A stretch of 64,000 nt of DNA from Pyrinomonadaceae bacterium (GTDB lineage: Bacteria; Acidobacteriota; Blastocatellia; Pyrinomonadales; Pyrinomonadaceae). The position numbers and the translations under genes are program-made. Each line of letters starts with the position of its first letter. Within the stretch, counting starts at the first letter, position 1. Below are positions 46,666 to 54,474 of the stretch, one piece after another. The DNA lies in NCBI GenBank assembly GCA_014380365.1, contig JACMJZ010000007.1:62001-126000 (forward strand), given 5' to 3'. A model generated the notes under the pieces. It had not been told where the DNA came from. It saw only the letters and a list, made by a program, of their open reading frames with translations, and searched no databases.

Positions 46666-48150
46666 TCAGTCGATCTTTTCGGCGGTTCCAGTCTGGCGAA
46701 ACCAGCTCAAGAGGCGCGTCGTCAACTTGAAGTCATCCAACACGCTTGGAGTGGAGGCCATAAGCTGCCAAAACTCTTCCTCGGTCTTAAGCCCACCAAG
46801 AAGCGTCGGCTCGGTGTCGAGGGCAAGGTTGCGCTTGACGCGCGCCGCTCCCGGGTCTTTATCTACATTGTTTTTGTAATCATTACTCAACACCTGCAGA
46901 CGCCGTAGTAAGCCAGGATCTTTGAGAGCGAGAGAAAAGAGTCCTGAATACTTATAGGCGAGCAGGGCCAACTTCAGAAAGTAATCGAATTGCCGAACAG
47001 CACCATCCGCCGCGAATGAGATGAGCGACTCATCGATCGGCGCACCCGACTCTCTTACCAGCCTTGCGAGTTGGAGCTGCACCGATAGCGTGTTCATGAA
47101 ACGCTTGATGCGACGGGGATTTGGGCCGAGCGCTAGTAGGATCAAGTTGTGATGCTGCTGGTCAAGAGCTACGGTTAGTTCATATTCCTTAATGATATCC
47201 AGCGCGTCGGCAGCAGAGAGGCGCGGCAGGTCGTAGGAAACTGAAATAGTCTTCTCGATATACTCGTCCGGGTCGACGAAGAGGCCGCCCCCGGCATCTT
47301 TCGACTGCTGGCTGTATCTGACGGCCAAACCCTTGCGGATCACGTCGCGATCAAGGGCCACAACGTAGCCGCAACCTGGCGCATCCAGAAAAAGCTTGAT
47401 GGCCTCGAAGATTTCCAGTGCGGACTCGGGCAGGCAACGATCCAGATCGTCTATGAAAACGAAAACGCGCCGATCGCCTGCCGCCGATTTGTTGATGAGT
47501 TCGGAGAACTTGTCGAGAAATTGCTCGATTGACTCTACCTGGACTACCTGCCGCTCTACTGTAGTGCGTTCCAACACAGAGGCCATTTTTTCGATCCGCT
47601 CTTTATCCACTAATGCGGCTTCGTTGTCCTTCGCACTCTTCCCCCCACCCCAGGACAGCAGCTTACCGAAGAAGCCTCCCGATTCTTTGAGAGCTTTGCT
47701 AACGAAGTCTAACTTAACTACTGACAGCAGAATTCCGAGGAGTTCGATGATTAACGTGCGCCAGTTGAGCTTCCATGGGCCTTTCTCCTCGACTGCAAAG
47801 GAACGGTAGAGCGAGGCTTCGAGCTCACTCAACTTCACCACGTCTACGTCTCGGTTGCGCAACTCACCCAGTACGCGCAGGATCAGCGCGCGCCAAAGCG
47901 CTTGACGCTCCTGATATTTCCAGGCGTTGAACTGGATGAAAACGTGTGCCTTATCATCGAACGTCTTCTTCAACTCGCGTTCGAGAGCACGCATTAATGT
48001 GGTCTTACCAGTACCCCAGGACCCATGGATGCCGACCACGGTCGCGCCTGTGCTTTTCTGTTTGAGGAGAGGCGCGAGAGCCTGAGCGACAAGGCCATAG
48101 TTGAATTCAGGTGCGTCAGTCGGGATGTCTTCCAGGTAACTATGACCCAT
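46666..48150 (-). CDS. KAP-family P-loop NTPase
   Basis: A 494-residue NTPase of the KAP family (named for Kidins220/ARMS and PifA). Walker A is GSWGTGKTT (43-51), the family word QFNAWKYQ is at 73-80, and Walker B is VFVFIDDLDRC (229-239) with the typical DDLDRC. Between the A and B motifs lies a hydrophobic insert (about 131-168, LIIELLGILLSVVKLDFV) of the kind that places KAP proteins at the membrane. The C-terminal part is helical with no known domain. Third and last gene of a three-NTPase operon; the start lies 2 bp after the preceding stop. KAP proteins include phage-exclusion factors (PifA), hence a defence role is possible but unproven. Confidence 0.92.
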   Translation of the reverse strand: MGHSYLEDIPTDAPEFNYGLVAQALAPLLKQKSTGATVVGIHGSWGTGKTTLMRALERELKKTFDDKAHVFIQFNAWKYQERQALWRALILRVLGELRNRDVDVVKLSELEASLYRSFAVEEKGPWKLNWRTLIIELLGILLSVVKLDFVSKALKESGGFFGKLLSWGGGKSAKDNEAALVDKERIEKMASVLERTTVERQVVQVESIEQFLDKFSELINKSAAGDRRVFVFIDDLDRCLPESALEIFEAIKLFLDAPGCGYVVALDRDVIRKGLAVRYSQQSKDAGGGLFVDPDEYIEKTISVSYDLPRLSAADALDIIKEYELTVALDQQHHNLILLALGPNPRRIKRFMNTLSVQLQLARLVRESGAPIDESLISFAADGAVRQFDYFLKLALLAYKYSGLFSLALKDPGLLRRLQVLSNDYKNNVDKDPGAARVKRNLALDTEPTLLGGLKTEEEFWQLMASTPSVLDDFKLTTRLLSWFRQTGTAEKID

Positions 48151-48152
48151 GC

Positions 48153-50687
48153 TTACCTCAATGGGGAGTAGTCGCGTTCAGCGGCGCGCTCCCGCTCGCG
48201 CCACCTGTCGATCACATGCTGTGGAGCTGGGCCAAGCAATCTCTCGAATGCGTCCCACAAGCGGAATTCAGCGTTGTGTTTCCATCTCAGGAGACCAAAA
48301 GTCTCCAGACTGTCGCGCAGGATATTATCCGCCCTGATTAGGTCTTCTACCGATTGGCTACGGATGTAAATCTCTCTCAGCGTCCGATTAGCGTAATTCA
48401 GAAAAGTTTCTACTTTGGACAAACGTATCCAGGTCAGCAGTAAACCTGTGAAGATCGCCAGCAGTCCCGTTAGAAAAAAGAGAATTCGGTAAGTGGTATA
48501 TTTCCTGTGAGCGTCCTCGGGGTTGAAGGAATTACGAGCGAGAAAGCCAGCGATGGTATCGCTCAAGAAAAATAATGCAATGCCGCCAACCATGGAGACG
48601 AATACGACCATGAGTTGCGGCCCCGAAAGCGCTAACCGAAGTTTACTACTCAGCGTTGGGGGCCGCGTTAGCTCGGCGTAGGTGGCATGTAATTTCGGTA
48701 CATCTTCTCCCTCTTGTTTGCTCAGCATTTCCTGCTCTCGTTTAGACTGCGCATCACTTCGTTCCGCTTCCAAACGTTCGTAGAAACTCCGGAGCTCAGC
48801 GTTGCGTTTCTGGTCAAGCTCTTCGACCTGGGTCTTGAGACTCTTGATGAATTCTCCACGCATGTCCGCCTCGCGCTTCGCCAGCGCATCGTTGAGCATT
48901 GCAATCTGTTGTCCCACCAAGCTGCGCTGATCTTGCAGTTCGGTTACCAGGCCTGCATTGGCGTGTGCACTGGCTTCCTTGATGCGGACTTCAAGCTGTG
49001 CCATCAGCTCCTGGTTTTCATTCTTGCGGGCTGCCAACTCGACCGCTCGGGCGTCTGTAGGCAGCGGACTGCCTGCCCCCCCATGCAGATAGCTGCGCAG
49101 GTCGGCAGCGAGCTGAGTCATCACCTCAGGTTCCGTCAAGTCGTACCAAAGCAGCTTGAAAGGGCGTGACGCCTTTAGAATTGCGAGCAGATCGTCGTCA
49201 ATGTTGCCGTCGGCAATGAAGCAACCGACCAGATCAGGGGTTGTCTTGTAGACCTCTTCGACGCGGTCGAGAAAGACCTTGGCCTGGTCATGCAAATCGG
49301 CTTGATGGACAGCGTGTCTTATCTCAACAACTATTCTCGGCTGGTCGTTGAAATAGCCAATAACGTCAAACATAATTCCGGTGGCCGTGGCTGCCTGCGC
49401 TCGGGCTTCAAATCCCTCCTGCTCCAGCACCGCCCTGACGCGTAGAGCTGCCGCCTCTATGCCGAGGCGTTGTCCAATCTGTCCAGCAGCTTGATCGACC
49501 TCCTGCGAAGTGATTGGATTGCGGAAGCCGTCAGTGTTCCGAAAAAGAACCCGGCAAAGAGTAAGGACGCCACGAATGTTGCCGTCGCTCGTTTGCACGA
49601 TCATCTCAGCTTCTGCGTTTCCAAATATTTTGGTGTTCAGATCCGGCACGCGTTTTTTGACTATTTCCAATACATCAGGAGCGGTAAGTTTTACCAACTC
49701 GATTGGGCCCAACTGTGTGAATCGATCATGGAAGTCTCTTTGCGTCTCCCAGCCGCTCCAATAACCGGAGACGAACACGAGCACCGCGTGCGGGGCCAGC
49801 CGTTCGAGCAATCTTTTGAGCCAGGTTATATTTCCCCCGCCCTGTTGCGACTTATCGAACCGGGTCAGGTGCTCCAGTTCATCAATCATTAGCACGAAAG
49901 GGATCTCAAGATGTCGGTGGATTGCCGCGAGGGCGATGAGAACTCCGGCCGCGTCTTCATCGGTGGATAAGTCCTTTGAAAGGCGGCGAACTGCCCGTTC
50001 GTCCTCCCGCAGGGGGAGTGCCGCCAGCCAACGAAGTGAGGCAGCGGCGGTGTCAATCCACACAGTGCCTGCGAGTGCGCGTCGTACATCTTCACTAACC
50101 CCAGCGCAAATCGCTTCGATTAGTTTCTCAAACTCATGGTCGACTGCTGAAACGTTGAGTAGGTTTTCTTTGATCAGCGTCAAGATTGCTTCAGGCTCGC
50201 GATTCAACCGATCCACGGCTGCTTCGGTCAGTTTCGTCTTTGCCGCCACGGCTTGGCCGGCCTTCGCATAGAGACGAAGCATTAATTGCTCAACGAAACC
50301 GCGTTCGCTCGACGGTCGGAGTCCGCTCGGATTCAGTTCCCGTCCGATCGTAAGTCGAAACCAGTTGAGTCGATCGGTTTCCAGCCCGGCCACCCGAATG
50401 ATCGTGAGATCGGGATAATCCTTGCCAATGGTCTCTTCTAATTTCGCGGCCGCGTCCAGTAGGAGGTGGGTCTTGCCCGTCCCGTAGTCCCCGCGCACCG
50501 CATTGATTAGGGTTTCGAGCTTCGTGTCCGGTTGTGTCTTGAGGTCCAGCCACTGTTGCGCATATGTCTCAACTCGCCGCCGCGCCTGTTCGATGGCGGG
50601 CGTGACGACTGTCGCACGGCTTACCTCTCTTGCTTGCCCTTTCAAAGCAACGACAGGGTAATCAGGGAAAAGGTTGGCCTCGCGCAT
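48153..50687 (-). CDS. AAA-type ATPase with nuclease-like, coiled-coil and two-helix membrane domains
   Basis: An 844-residue multidomain protein. Walker A is GDYGTGKTH (66-74) and Walker B is PFVLMIDELEHL (263-274). A helical lid follows to about 400. Residues 415-530 look like a restriction-endonuclease fold: GFEARAQAAT, IMFDVIGYF with Asp441, RIVVEIRHAV with Glu455-x-Arg457 (Arg where PD-(D/E)xK nucleases have Lys), then PDLVGCFIADG. Residues about 545-655 are a long coiled coil, and 691-715 and 733-755 are two membrane helices. It starts one base after the stop of the upstream gene (TAA-ATG), so expression is coupled. I know no characterised protein with this exact layout. Confidence 0.85.
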   Translation of the reverse strand: MREANLFPDYPVVALKGQAREVSRATVVTPAIEQARRRVETYAQQWLDLKTQPDTKLETLINAVRGDYGTGKTHLLLDAAAKLEETIGKDYPDLTIIRVAGLETDRLNWFRLTIGRELNPSGLRPSSERGFVEQLMLRLYAKAGQAVAAKTKLTEAAVDRLNREPEAILTLIKENLLNVSAVDHEFEKLIEAICAGVSEDVRRALAGTVWIDTAAASLRWLAALPLREDERAVRRLSKDLSTDEDAAGVLIALAAIHRHLEIPFVLMIDELEHLTRFDKSQQGGGNITWLKRLLERLAPHAVLVFVSGYWSGWETQRDFHDRFTQLGPIELVKLTAPDVLEIVKKRVPDLNTKIFGNAEAEMIVQTSDGNIRGVLTLCRVLFRNTDGFRNPITSQEVDQAAGQIGQRLGIEAAALRVRAVLEQEGFEARAQAATATGIMFDVIGYFNDQPRIVVEIRHAVHQADLHDQAKVFLDRVEEVYKTTPDLVGCFIADGNIDDDLLAILKASRPFKLLWYDLTEPEVMTQLAADLRSYLHGGAGSPLPTDARAVELAARKNENQELMAQLEVRIKEASAHANAGLVTELQDQRSLVGQQIAMLNDALAKREADMRGEFIKSLKTQVEELDQKRNAELRSFYERLEAERSDAQSKREQEMLSKQEGEDVPKLHATYAELTRPPTLSSKLRLALSGPQLMVVFVSMVGGIALFFLSDTIAGFLARNSFNPEDAHRKYTTYRILFFLTGLLAIFTGLLLTWIRLSKVETFLNYANRTLREIYIRSQSVEDLIRADNILRDSLETFGLLRWKHNAEFRLWDAFERLLGPAPQHVIDRWRERERAAERDYSPLR

Positions 50688-51671
50688 TTATGCCACCAGT
50701 CTCTCGTATTCGCGCGAGAGAGGAAGTAAGTGTGTCTTTACGTCTTTTTCCGCCACCTCCGAAATATCAAAGTCGGCAGGGAGCGTTTGCAATCGAGACG
50801 AGATCATCCTGTCAAGAATCACCGCGAATTGTTTCAGGCTGATGGAATCTCCTGACACGAGCCCCAGGACCTTATTCGAAGCAAAGGCGCCGCTAATATC
50901 TTTCTCACTGAACGGGAACAGCGGATACTTTGCCAGCCACGGCACTTTCACGTCGCTATCGCGAAACGCATCGATGCGGTGTTTGACGAAGCTGACAGCC
51001 CAGTCAGCCGACAGGGGCAGCATGCGAAAGGGCGTAATCTGGCGCTTACCGGCACCCGACAACTCGTTGAACAGCTCATTGACATTGGAAAGCAGAAAGA
51101 GGAATACGATCCATTTCTTGCGGCCGGCGGTGAGTTGGTCGAACATCTCGATTGCCCTGTCTAAGGCACCACCTGGGACAAGATTATCGACGACAACGCA
51201 GCAATAGGAGCCTCGGCTGATCTCCTTTTCAATCTTGGATTGGACCTCATTGATGCGCTCGATTTGCTTAAGCGGGTCGGCCATTCTCTCCAGAGACCAT
51301 TCGTCGAAGATATGCCACTCTCCTGTTTTAGGCTTGCACTGTTTCAACCAGCTAATCAGGTACTGTGCCATGCTCGTTTTACCTGTACCCTCATTGCCGT
51401 AGATCGAAAACGCGAATGAGCTAAGGCCGGTGCCCGGTGGTTTCTCCCGATAGCCTTTCATGCGCGCGAAACTTTGGAAATTTCCCATGAAGGTGCCAAA
51501 CGCACCAGCATCCGGACTAAACATCGTCTCAAGCACAGGTTCCAGGTTAATGAGCAATGGATTGTTCGCGAGATCGTTCTGGGCAGTCACGTCAAGCAAC
51601 CCATCGAGGGGCTGAAGCGGGCTGAAGGGGTTATCTTTTAGCGCGAACGCTTTCCGATAGTCGTAAGCCAT
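50688..51671 (-). CDS. P-loop NTPase, first gene of the three-NTPase operon
   Basis: A 327-residue NTPase with Walker A YGNEGTGKTS (91-100) and a Walker B-like strand CCVVVDNL (157-164) in which Asn follows the Asp instead of Glu. The N-terminal NPFSPLQPL and the arrangement recall AAA/ORC-type switch ATPases; the C-terminal half is helical with no known domain. There is no membrane segment. It is the promoter-proximal gene; its promoter must lie in the 220 bp shared with alr. The Walker B change may mean weak hydrolysis, so it could act as a nucleotide-binding regulator of the other two (inference). Confidence 0.82.
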   Translation of the reverse strand: MAYDYRKAFALKDNPFSPLQPLDGLLDVTAQNDLANNPLLINLEPVLETMFSPDAGAFGTFMGNFQSFARMKGYREKPPGTGLSSFAFSIYGNEGTGKTSMAQYLISWLKQCKPKTGEWHIFDEWSLERMADPLKQIERINEVQSKIEKEISRGSYCCVVVDNLVPGGALDRAIEMFDQLTAGRKKWIVFLFLLSNVNELFNELSGAGKRQITPFRMLPLSADWAVSFVKHRIDAFRDSDVKVPWLAKYPLFPFSEKDISGAFASNKVLGLVSGDSISLKQFAVILDRMISSRLQTLPADFDISEVAEKDVKTHLLPLSREYERLVA

Positions 51672-51891: not shown

Positions 51892-53070
51892 ATGTCTTCC
51901 TTTCCCACTCGAAATAACACTGCTGGTCAGCGCCCCACTTGGGCGGAGATCGACCGCAACGCTCTTGCAGCGAATTTGCAGATCGTAAAGAGCCACGTTG
52001 GCGCTGATGTAAGTGTGATGGCTGTGGTGAAGGCTAACGCTTATGGCCACGGCGCGGTGGAGTGTGCGCGGCGGTTGGAAGCGGAAGGCGCAGACTGGTT
52101 TGGCGTGGCGTTGCCGGAAGAGGGAATCGAACTAAGAAATGCGGGCGTAACTAAACCCATTCTCTGTCTTGCCGGCTTTTGGGAGGGGCAAGCGGCGGCT
52201 TGTCTTCAGTACAAGCTTGTTCCGGCCGTCTATCGTTTCGACTTGATCGAGGCGATCGATTCAGCTGCGCGCGAACGAGGTGAAGTCGCGGATGTTCACA
52301 TCAAGATTGATACCGGCATGGGACGGCTAGGCGTTCGCTTCGACGAGGTTAACGACTTTGCGGGGGCACTCAAGAGATTCAAGAATATCCGTGTCGACGG
52401 TTTGATGACTCACTTCGCTGCTGCTGACGAGCCGTCGTGTGGCCCGCTAACGAAGGATCAGATTCGACGGTTCGAGCATGCCGTCGCTGTGTTTCGCGAA
52501 CAGGGATACCGGCCGAGCTATCGTCACCTCTCGAATTCTGCCGGCATCTTTGCTCAACCCGAGGCGTCAGGAAACTCTGACAGGGAAACGGGCGCAAACA
52601 TGGTGCGTCCCGGCGGTGTGTTGTATGGACTCTGGCGCGACATACTCGATCCGGCGCATCGAGATCAGGAATTCCAGCCCGTGATGTCGCTTCACTCCCG
52701 CATTACCTTGTTGAAGTGGGTTCCGGCGGGCGAGACCGTCGGCTATGGCTGCACCTTTGAAGCGTCGCGCAAGACGTTGGTCGCCACAATTCCGCTGGGC
52801 TACGACGATGGTTATATGCGCGCCTTATCGAATCGCGGTCACGCCATTATCCGCGGAGTGTACGCAACGGTTATCGGCCGCATATCGATGGACCTCACCT
52901 TGATCGACGTCACCAACGTGCCGGATGTTCAGTTAGACGACAGAGTCATACTGCTCGGCCAGGCCGATGGCCTTTCGATAACCGCGGAAGAACTGGGCAA
53001 GATTGCGGGCACGCTGTCGTATGAAGTGACGTGCGGTGTTGGCAGCCGAGTGCCGCGATTCTTCGCGTAA
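51892..53070 (+). CDS. alr: alanine racemase
   Basis: A 392-residue PLP enzyme that supplies D-alanine for peptidoglycan. The PLP lysine is in AVVKANAYGHG (Lys47), HIKIDTGMGRLGVR follows, and the second catalytic Tyr is in VGYGCTFEAS. The barrel and C-terminal beta domain are complete, with ISMDLTLIDVT near the end. It is transcribed away from the three-NTPase operon. The thioredoxin-like gene starts 31 bp downstream. Confidence 0.97.
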   Translation: MSSFPTRNNTAGQRPTWAEIDRNALAANLQIVKSHVGADVSVMAVVKANAYGHGAVECARRLEAEGADWFGVALPEEGIELRNAGVTKPILCLAGFWEGQAAACLQYKLVPAVYRFDLIEAIDSAARERGEVADVHIKIDTGMGRLGVRFDEVNDFAGALKRFKNIRVDGLMTHFAAADEPSCGPLTKDQIRRFEHAVAVFREQGYRPSYRHLSNSAGIFAQPEASGNSDRETGANMVRPGGVLYGLWRDILDPAHRDQEFQPVMSLHSRITLLKWVPAGETVGYGCTFEASRKTLVATIPLGYDDGYMRALSNRGHAIIRGVYATVIGRISMDLTLIDVTNVPDVQLDDRVILLGQADGLSITAEELGKIAGTLSYEVTCGVGSRVPRFFA

Positions 53071-53101: not shown

Positions 53102-53671
53102 ATGTTAAAAAACAAGCGTTGGAAGTGGCTGATACTCACGTGCGTCGCGCTCGCTGCGGTTGGCGCTGCGGCGATTGGTTTATGGAGACCCGGCTCAGAG
53201 GTTGTTCTTACAGACATCAACAACATTGCAGAACTGAGCGCGCGGTTCAATCAGGACAAAGGAACTCCGCGCCTTGTGCTATTGCTTTCGCCCACGTGAC
53301 CGGAGTGTCTTTCTGGCGCCCGGCGGGTGCAAAAGGAAATCCTCGAAGCACATCCTTCTGCGAAGCTTCGTGTTTACGTCGTTTGGTTTTCAATGATCGG
53401 GACTGATGCCCGCTCAAGGTGGGGCTGGACTGGCGGAGTATTAAACGACGCAAGGGCCGTGCATTTTTGGGATGAAAAGAAAAGGGTTGGACGTTTCTAC
53501 GCTGGCAAGGATCCTGAATCAGACGACCCCGATGTCGTTTGGGACGCTTACTACCTTTATGGCCCGGATGCCGAGTGGACGACGACAGCGGCACCGCTAA
53601 GCGGCGACGGCGCGACCGTACGCGCTGAGTTTGATGAGCTTAAGAATGAGCTCGCGCCATTTCTGAAGTAA
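53102..53671 (+). CDS. thioredoxin-like protein, candidate selenoprotein (UxxC)
   Basis: Read through an in-frame TGA at 53297-53299, one frame codes for 189 residues. It has an N-terminal membrane anchor (WLILTCVALAAVGAAAIGLW, about 9-28), then a strand and redox loop LVLLLSPT-[TGA]-PEC-LSGARRVQKEIL, then LRVYVVWFSMIG, VHFWDEKKRVGRFYAG and VWDAYYLYGPDAEW. The TGA sits exactly at the first position of a C-x-x-C-like redox motif, as in UxxC selenoproteins. A hairpin fitting bacterial SECIS rules starts 17 nt after the TGA. Without read-through there would be a 65-residue fragment and an orphan C-terminal part lacking its own ribosome site. The alternative is a nonsense mutation of a Cys codon. 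No sel genes are in the window. Confidence 0.75.
53316..53330 (+). promoter_or_regulatory. SECIS-like hairpin downstream of the in-frame UGA
   Basis: GCGCCC (53316-53321), loop GGC, GGGTGC (53325-53330): six base pairs including one G-U. A lower stem CTTT/AAAG can extend it. The apical loop begins 23 nt after the UGA and has G at its first two positions. Bacterial SECIS elements need a G among the first two loop bases and a UGA-to-loop distance of roughly 16-37 nt, so it fits. Confidence 0.6.
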
Positions 53672-53763: not shown

Positions 53764-54474
53764 TTGAATTCATCACCTGAAAACCTCAAAGTCAGCATCA
53801 ACGAGCGTGACAGTGTGACCGCGCTGCTCTATCTCGCGGCAAAGCGCGACCGCAAAGGAATCACTCTAATCTTAGGGCACGGTGCGGGCGCGAATCAGTT
53901 GCATCCCTTCATGCAACTCTTCGCGAAGGGACTGGCCGCGCGTGGCCTGGACGTCTTGACGTTCAATTTCGTCTACATGGAACAGGGTCGTCGTGTGCCG
54001 GATCCGAAAGCGAAACTGGAGTCGTGCTACCGGGCGGTGATCGAGGCGGCGCACAAGCATTCGAAGTTGAAAGGGAATCAGATCGTGATTGGCGGCAAGT
54101 CCATGGGCGGACGCATCGCCTCGCAGGTTGCGGCTGCGATGGAGGCGGACGCCGGTCCAGACTCTTCTGCTACCGCTTCAATTTCCGGCTTGGTCTTCCT
54201 GGGCTACCCACTACATCCGCCCGGCAATCCCGAAAAACTTCGCGACGCACATCTGGATCAGATCAAGGCGCCCATGCTTTTCGTGCAAGGCGCACGGGAT
54301 GCGTTTGGCACTGAGGATGAGATTCGGGGTGTAATCAAAAGACTCAAGTTACCGGCCACGCTCCACGCCATCGAAGGCGGCGACCACTCGTTGAAAGTTC
54401 CCAAAAGCTCGAGTCTCACACAAGAACAAGTCTACGAATCCGCTATGGACACGATAGTCACTTGGCTGAATTGA
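53764..54474 (+). CDS. alpha/beta hydrolase (TEX30/KANL3-like)
   Basis: A 236-residue cytoplasmic hydrolase of the dienelactone-hydrolase/TEX30 type. The oxyanion loop is LGHGAGANQLHPFM, the nucleophile is in IGGKSMGGRIASQ (GxSxG as GKSMG), the acid is in QGARDAFGT and the His is in EGGDHSLKV. TTG start at 53764 with GAGAGG upstream; this also fits the length of the family. Substrate unknown. The P450 gene follows after 17 bp, so they may be cotranscribed. Confidence 0.88.
   Translation: MNSSPENLKVSINERDSVTALLYLAAKRDRKGITLILGHGAGANQLHPFMQLFAKGLAARGLDVLTFNFVYMEQGRRVPDPKAKLESCYRAVIEAAHKHSKLKGNQIVIGGKSMGGRIASQVAAAMEADAGPDSSATASISGLVFLGYPLHPPGNPEKLRDAHLDQIKAPMLFVQGARDAFGTEDEIRGVIKRLKLPATLHAIEGGDHSLKVPKSSSLTQEQVYESAMDTIVTWLN

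Follow-up and report, generated by a model that had tools for sequence, protein, structure and literature searches.

A candidate selenoprotein gene from a UxxC family in a Pyrinomonadaceae genome, with a UGA-linked hairpin and mercury-type neighbours in sister branches

Results

The window analysed here is a 64,000-nucleotide stretch of a Pyrinomonadaceae genome (contig JACMJZ010000007.1). On its forward strand, positions 53102-53671 hold a gene ending in a TAA stop (53669-53671) that would encode a selenoprotein of 189 residues with selenocysteine (Sec) at residue 66. A preliminary description of this DNA had reported a frame broken only by the TGA at 53297, and translation confirmed it: the codon at 53297-53299 is the sole in-frame TGA, lies within SPT-U-PEC, and ends the standard translation at residue 65. 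The putative Sec66 and Cys69 bound a U-P-E-C redox motif (53297-53308, forward strand). Toward the N-terminus, a hydrophobic segment at about residues 9-28 (53126-53185, forward strand; Kyte-Doolittle mean of 2.29 across 19 residues starting at residue 10) is a predicted membrane anchor, from which we infer the topology of the window protein. A segment reaching at least 1.6 on the same scale precedes the domain in 25 of 30 family members.

The neighbouring genes, also on the forward strand, provide context only. Upstream is an alanine racemase gene (51892-53070; Pfam Ala_racemase_N and _C), and downstream an alpha/beta hydrolase gene (53764-54474; Pfam Abhydrolase_11). The same order of alanine racemase, family gene and hydrolase occurs at the locus of one relative, G009, as judged by resemblance of the open reading frames rather than by a domain scan. 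Both the hydrolase gene and the gene after it are closed by ordinary TGA stops. Since UGA terminates two neighbouring genes, the genetic code is not globally altered; UGA would then have two meanings at this locus, so that a signal is required. A plasmid search gave no match. Elsewhere in the window, three adjacent genes on the reverse strand (46666-51671) form a possible defence-type cluster: one encodes a P-loop ATPase resembling QatA/PifA-type models (PADLOC E-value 2e-35), another is weakly BrxD-like (7e-6), and the third has no match.

To place the gene among its relatives, we searched 195 related genomes, of which 28, the window's own included, contain matches to the window protein; with a family profile, 48 of the 396 genomes searched in the phylum give matches. 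Among 46 distinct genes of the phylum in which the motif column was inspected, 37 have TGA and 9 have Cys, a tally in which 16 genes outside the 29-member alignment were located by a pattern requiring U or C (other residues being invisible there), and which leaves out four further match rows of the 195-genome search as well as profile-search rows without a locus. As the starting query was a Sec protein and only one phylum was covered, the ratio of TGA to Cys may be inflated. In the alignment itself, all 29 members have only TGA or Cys at this column, the result on which the preliminary description had proposed to judge its homologues, and R57, P64, U/C66, C69, G72, W147, D148 and W159 are invariant. 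Sec and Cys have been exchanged at least five times on well-supported branches of the tree, which carries a warning about long branches that meet. Downstream of the TGA, pN is lower than pS in six of six pairs from the window gene's own clade. Disruption of relatives' frames at other sites, which had been named as evidence against Sec, is not general, and the exceptions are few. One member (L044/L058; G080:C40:123618-124200) is interrupted by a frame break ahead of its UxxC part, and is either a decaying gene or an assembly error; L047 of G065 runs into N and was excluded from alignments A1 and A2; and G009 has short extra pieces, one with a TAG.

The window's genome encodes the entire set of genes that the preliminary description had listed for checking, selA, selB, selC and selD, all above curated cut-offs. 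For tRNA-Sec the score is 69.7 bits against a gathering score of 47, with a tca anticodon according to ARAGORN; SelB scores 330.2 bits (cut-off 242.25), SelA 533.9 bits (cut-off 267.9) and SelD 356.9 bits (cut-off 125). The SelD gene (L099, G000:C8:186468-187397) has an in-frame TGA of its own, in SGUAAKLPPSI, at a site known to hold either Cys or Sec, and SelD is thus a probable second selenoprotein of this genome. A further probable selenoprotein is the product of a peroxiredoxin/redoxin-like gene (L125, G000:C8:166330-166725, reverse strand) with an in-frame TGA in FTGGUTKEM; several other PF08534 matches of relatives also contain one TGA.

Across the relatives, SelB is above its cut-off in 158 of 195 genomes. 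The machinery is therefore common; it makes Sec possible without pointing to the window gene in particular. Four genomes (G001, G002, G010 and G112) have TGA members, yet no SelB near the cut-off; these assemblies are 67 to 81% complete. tRNA-Sec is above its cut-off in 36 of 38 genomes, among them 27 of the 28 that gave family matches, although the scores of G166 (47.7 bits) and G185 (51.0 bits) are at the level of ordinary-tRNA decoys; 25 of the 28 reach at least 61.7 bits. An unusual number of tRNA-Sec matches, four above 66 bits (C15, C6 twice and C11), occurs in G015.

A SECIS-like hairpin had been proposed at 53316-53330 (forward strand), and its agreement with published rules was borne out. 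The stem pairs 53316-53321 with 53325-53330 around a loop at 53322-53324 (GCGCCC-GGC-GGGTGC), giving 6 bp, a 3-nucleotide loop with G at both of its first positions, and an energy of -9.9 kcal/mol. The loop begins at the 23rd base past the UGA, with 22 nucleotides between. The limits for bacterial SECIS elements, as given in the excerpted text of a 2026 review (PMC13188914), are a loop of 3-9 nucleotides, a stem of 4-16 bp, G in the first two loop positions, a distance of 16-37 nucleotides from the UGA and an energy of at most -7.5 kcal/mol. The sequence of this hairpin is common to nine members of the window gene's own clade, one loop base excepted, and the energy is -9.9 kcal/mol in all seven clade members tested. 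The codons overlying it (53315-53331, forward strand; GGC GCC CGG YGG GTG CA) appear frozen: at codons +6 to +11, 105 of 115 same-residue pairs within the clade use the identical codon, versus 748 of 1712 in the rest of the gene, and of 93 windows compared for synonymous conservation, those beginning at +5, +6 and +7 rank highest. Single-sequence folding was rejected as evidence for a SECIS element, as the sequence at this site does not stand out from shuffled versions (z -0.67; 49 of 200 shuffles as good).

Across the family, the conserved structure lies 5 nucleotides upstream of this register. RNAalifold on 25 gap-free aligned TGA sequences gives a 7-bp hairpin with a 3-nucleotide loop, and by RNAalifold and pair counts its equivalent in the window is 53313-53323 (forward strand), with 53313-53316 pairing with 53320-53323 around a loop at 53317-53319. 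In the alignment, 90.9% of cells are paired and 32 cells are changed on both sides. The covariation score is 0.668, as against 0.278 for shuffles, none of 500 reaching the observed value, and no more than 0.304 for the structure slid along the alignment. Two of five measures, those least affected by relatedness, were not exceptional: pairs with a change on both sides number five, a value equalled or exceeded in 134 of 500 shuffles, and further pair types number 15 (36 of 500). The hairpin at 53316-53330 was not supported as a family-wide SECIS element (72.0% paired, covariation 0.319) and is retained for the own clade. The energy in the family-wide register ranges from -1.2 kcal/mol in the window, over the -7.5 limit, to -9.4 kcal/mol, and we infer that the clade uses the 53316-53330 register or both.

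Because shuffles ignore relatedness and sliding favours a structure derived from the alignment, the Cys genes are a cleaner control. At the family-wide hairpin, a mean of 6.46 of 7 pairs form in the 37 TGA genes versus 3.0 of 7 in the 9 Cys genes, the latter close to the off-register level of 2.3 to 3.5. When shifts of -1 to +2 are allowed, the TGA genes form seven pairs in 28 cases, six in 7 and five in 2, and the Cys genes three pairs in five cases, four in two, five in one and six in one. Total folding energy failed as a discriminator, being alike in TGA genes (-12.38) and Cys genes (-12.29), so that the hairpin signal is positional. The comparative evidence thus supports hairpin-directed Sec insertion at this codon.

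What fold surrounds the motif is suggested by weaker matches. The window protein has no Pfam match, no NCBIfam family at an E-value of 10 and, by sequence against the PDB, only two weak matches to an unrelated enzyme. Family members and the profile have weak matches that point alike to families of thioredoxin type, and in these the motif lines up. Among the members, Redoxin is matched at an E-value of 0.042 in 1 of 29 and Thioredoxin at 0.015 in 2 of 29, with a composite match to Thioredoxin_4 above the cut-off in L040 only. In a profile search of the PDB the best match is a putative thioredoxin (E-value 0.021), and hhalign to redoxins gives an E-value of 0.007 at a probability of 5.5%, versus 0.1% for a MerR control. 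Two AlphaFold2 runs gave mean pLDDT values of 44.7 and 40.5, too poor for use; the poor model has a strand at 57-62 followed by a helix at 67-83, with UxxC at the strand-helix junction, and its Foldseek matches are mostly thioredoxins, none at an E-value of 0.001. The protein had been called a thioredoxin-like reductase. The motif, the local strand-UxxC-helix-strand pattern and the weak profile matches agree with this, although the domain has no significant family or structure match; we consider thioredoxin-fold membership likely, and likewise a function as a UxxC oxidoreductase.

In other branches of the family, the gene keeps company with genes of mer type. A MerT domain precedes the UxxC domain in two members (L035, 44.4 bits; L029, 32.9 bits, exactly at the cut-off), and an HMA domain does so in L025. 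By tblastn, mer-type genes are found at 21 of 46 family loci versus 0 of 41 control loci. When the 8 loci that supplied queries are removed, the count is 13 of 38 versus 0 of 41 (Fisher p 2.1e-5, uncorrected for relatedness), falling to 10 of 38 at an E-value of 1e-20 (p 3.3e-4) and 7 of 38 at 1e-30 (p 0.004), in a comparison that includes related and so non-independent loci (L043 and L047 share a genome, L032 and L044 come from close relatives) as well as 17 loci (L001-L017) that all belong to the window's genome, and in which proteins of MerR and MerA type are members of large superfamilies. Ten neighbours were scanned against NCBIfam: that of L095 passes the MerA cut-off (502.6 bits), one at L088 passes the CopZ_Nterm_CC cut-off (NF047645, 127.3 bits), MerR-, MerC-, MerT- and MerP-type matches are below their cut-offs, and one neighbour has no match. 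At L088 (G074), the family gene lies between a MerT-like gene and a gene for a CopZ-type iron-sulfur metallochaperone, with a TlpA-like gene, by sequence resemblance only, next to them. The association of the sister branches with mer-type genes is new and unexpected. The window's own locus has neither mer genes nor a fusion to a mer-type part, and the G009 locus likewise lacks mer genes; a mercury role for the window copy is therefore not supported.

Discussion

Reading UGA 53297 as Sec is strongly supported by the comparative sequence evidence: TGA is kept at its column, a covarying hairpin follows it that is absent from the Cys homologues, and the codons over the hairpin are frozen in the own clade. 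The preliminary description had favoured the same reading, and the tests that it named as able to overturn it, on the sel genes, on the motif column and on disruptions elsewhere, all came out for Sec. The product is probably a membrane-anchored selenol:disulfide oxidoreductase. Its selenocysteine would be placed at UGA 53297 by SelA, SelB, tRNA-Sec and SelD, on the signal of the hairpin that lies inside the coding region just 3' of that codon. One N-terminal helix would hold the product in the membrane, probably with the thioredoxin-like domain outside the cytoplasm. By analogy with UxxC chemistry, the pair of Sec66 and Cys69 would act as the selenol:disulfide oxidoreductase, the selenolate attacking a substrate disulfide and Cys69 resolving the mixed bond. 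Other branches of the family, unlike the window's, would have been drawn into operons of mercury type or have acquired MerT or HMA fusions.

The alternative that survives best concerns function. The window protein, or failing that those relatives encoded in mer-type operons, could handle Hg(II) or another soft metal, with the selenol-thiol pair capturing or passing on the metal rather than reducing disulfides. The MerT and HMA fusions, the MerR-, MerC-, MerT- and MerA-type neighbours in other branches and their excess over control loci argue for such a role, and selenolates bind mercury tightly. We nevertheless regard it as unlikely: the loci of the window and of G009 are without mer genes, own-clade matches are confined to L024 (MerR-type, 1e-22) and L066 (MerA-type, 1e-23) and are possibly generic, and most mer-type neighbours fall short of their NCBIfam cut-offs and so do not point to one metal. 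A broader proposal seems somewhat easier to entertain, and is still tentative. It holds that the family is undescribed, uses Sec for the most part and consists of UxxC proteins that are exported or anchored in the membrane. Their selenol-thiol pair would act on Hg(II) or another soft metal together with MerT/MerC-type transporters, as a selenium-based addition to the mer system, and the window's branch would be a side line with a general redox function.

The remaining alternatives deny Sec altogether. If a mutation had turned a Cys codon into a premature stop, the rival that the preliminary description itself had raised, the outcome would be a pseudogene or a truncated protein of 65 residues, as standard translation predicts; this reading is rejected on the conservation of TGA at a shared column in 37 of 46 genes, and purifying selection after the TGA and a covarying hairpin missing from Cys genes also make it highly improbable. 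No more credible is decoding of UGA by another route, whether general recoding to Trp (rejected, as UGA is an ordinary stop next door) or programmed readthrough with some other amino acid, for while the frame would be open under any such code, the relatives' alternative residue in the 29-member alignment is Cys and never Trp, the genome has complete Sec machinery, and the hairpin is tied to UGA.

Although standard translation stops at residue 65, the gene very probably encodes a complete selenoprotein. With its repeated exchanges of Sec and Cys and its Cys genes that lack the hairpin, the family lends itself to testing SECIS dependence, and a link between selenium and mercury can be tested in the sister branches that have mer-type surroundings.

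Among described selenoproteins, Table 1 of the 2026 review counts 119 families or subfamilies, and no entry in the excerpted table is named for this UxxC domain, in a comparison made by description only, where generic entries could hide a member (PMC13188914). Among the papers listed in searches of open-licence PMC literature, none describes the family in its title or abstract, and there is nothing closer to it in the excerpted texts of PMC9312934, PMC1794560 and PMC12013277, the last of which reports three known and no new selenoprotein genes for the one Acidobacteriota genome it surveyed. Several tabulated selenoproteins resemble the family in part. The mercuric transport selenoproteins, namely the MerT/CopZ fusion-like heavy metal transport selenoprotein (NF045683) and the 'putative mercuric transport protein' (PF02411), have a Sec motif of C/SxxU (PMC13188914, excerpted table). 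Some relatives of the window protein likewise join a MerT or HMA part to the Sec-related family; their match is confined to that part and is below the NF045683 cut-off, and the window protein has neither part. The DF family (seleno)protein (NF049942) is the sole selenoprotein model of NCBIfam above its cut-off among the 29 members, where it matches an extra C-terminal domain of L040 (G138; residues 221-312, 84.9 bits, cut-off 70), a separate domain after the UxxC domain that is absent from the window protein. SaoT (NF040730), tabulated with other Sao selenoproteins in the same excerpt (PMC13188914), is likewise thioredoxin-like with UxxC, and its model is not among the best 25 of the 35 NCBIfam families matched by the 29 members, the other 10 being of lower rank with one member matched each. 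Closest in kind are the UxxC thioredoxin-fold selenoproteins listed there, namely thioredoxin (PF00085), thiol:disulfide interchange protein (PF13098), Redoxin family protein (PF08534) and thiol-disulfide isomerase-like (cd02966) (PMC13188914). They have the same UxxC, and some family members have weak profile matches of thioredoxin type, but the window protein matches none of their Pfam models. With no Pfam, NCBIfam or clear PDB model found for it, the family is most likely a new one, of UxxC selenoproteins already known as a kind.
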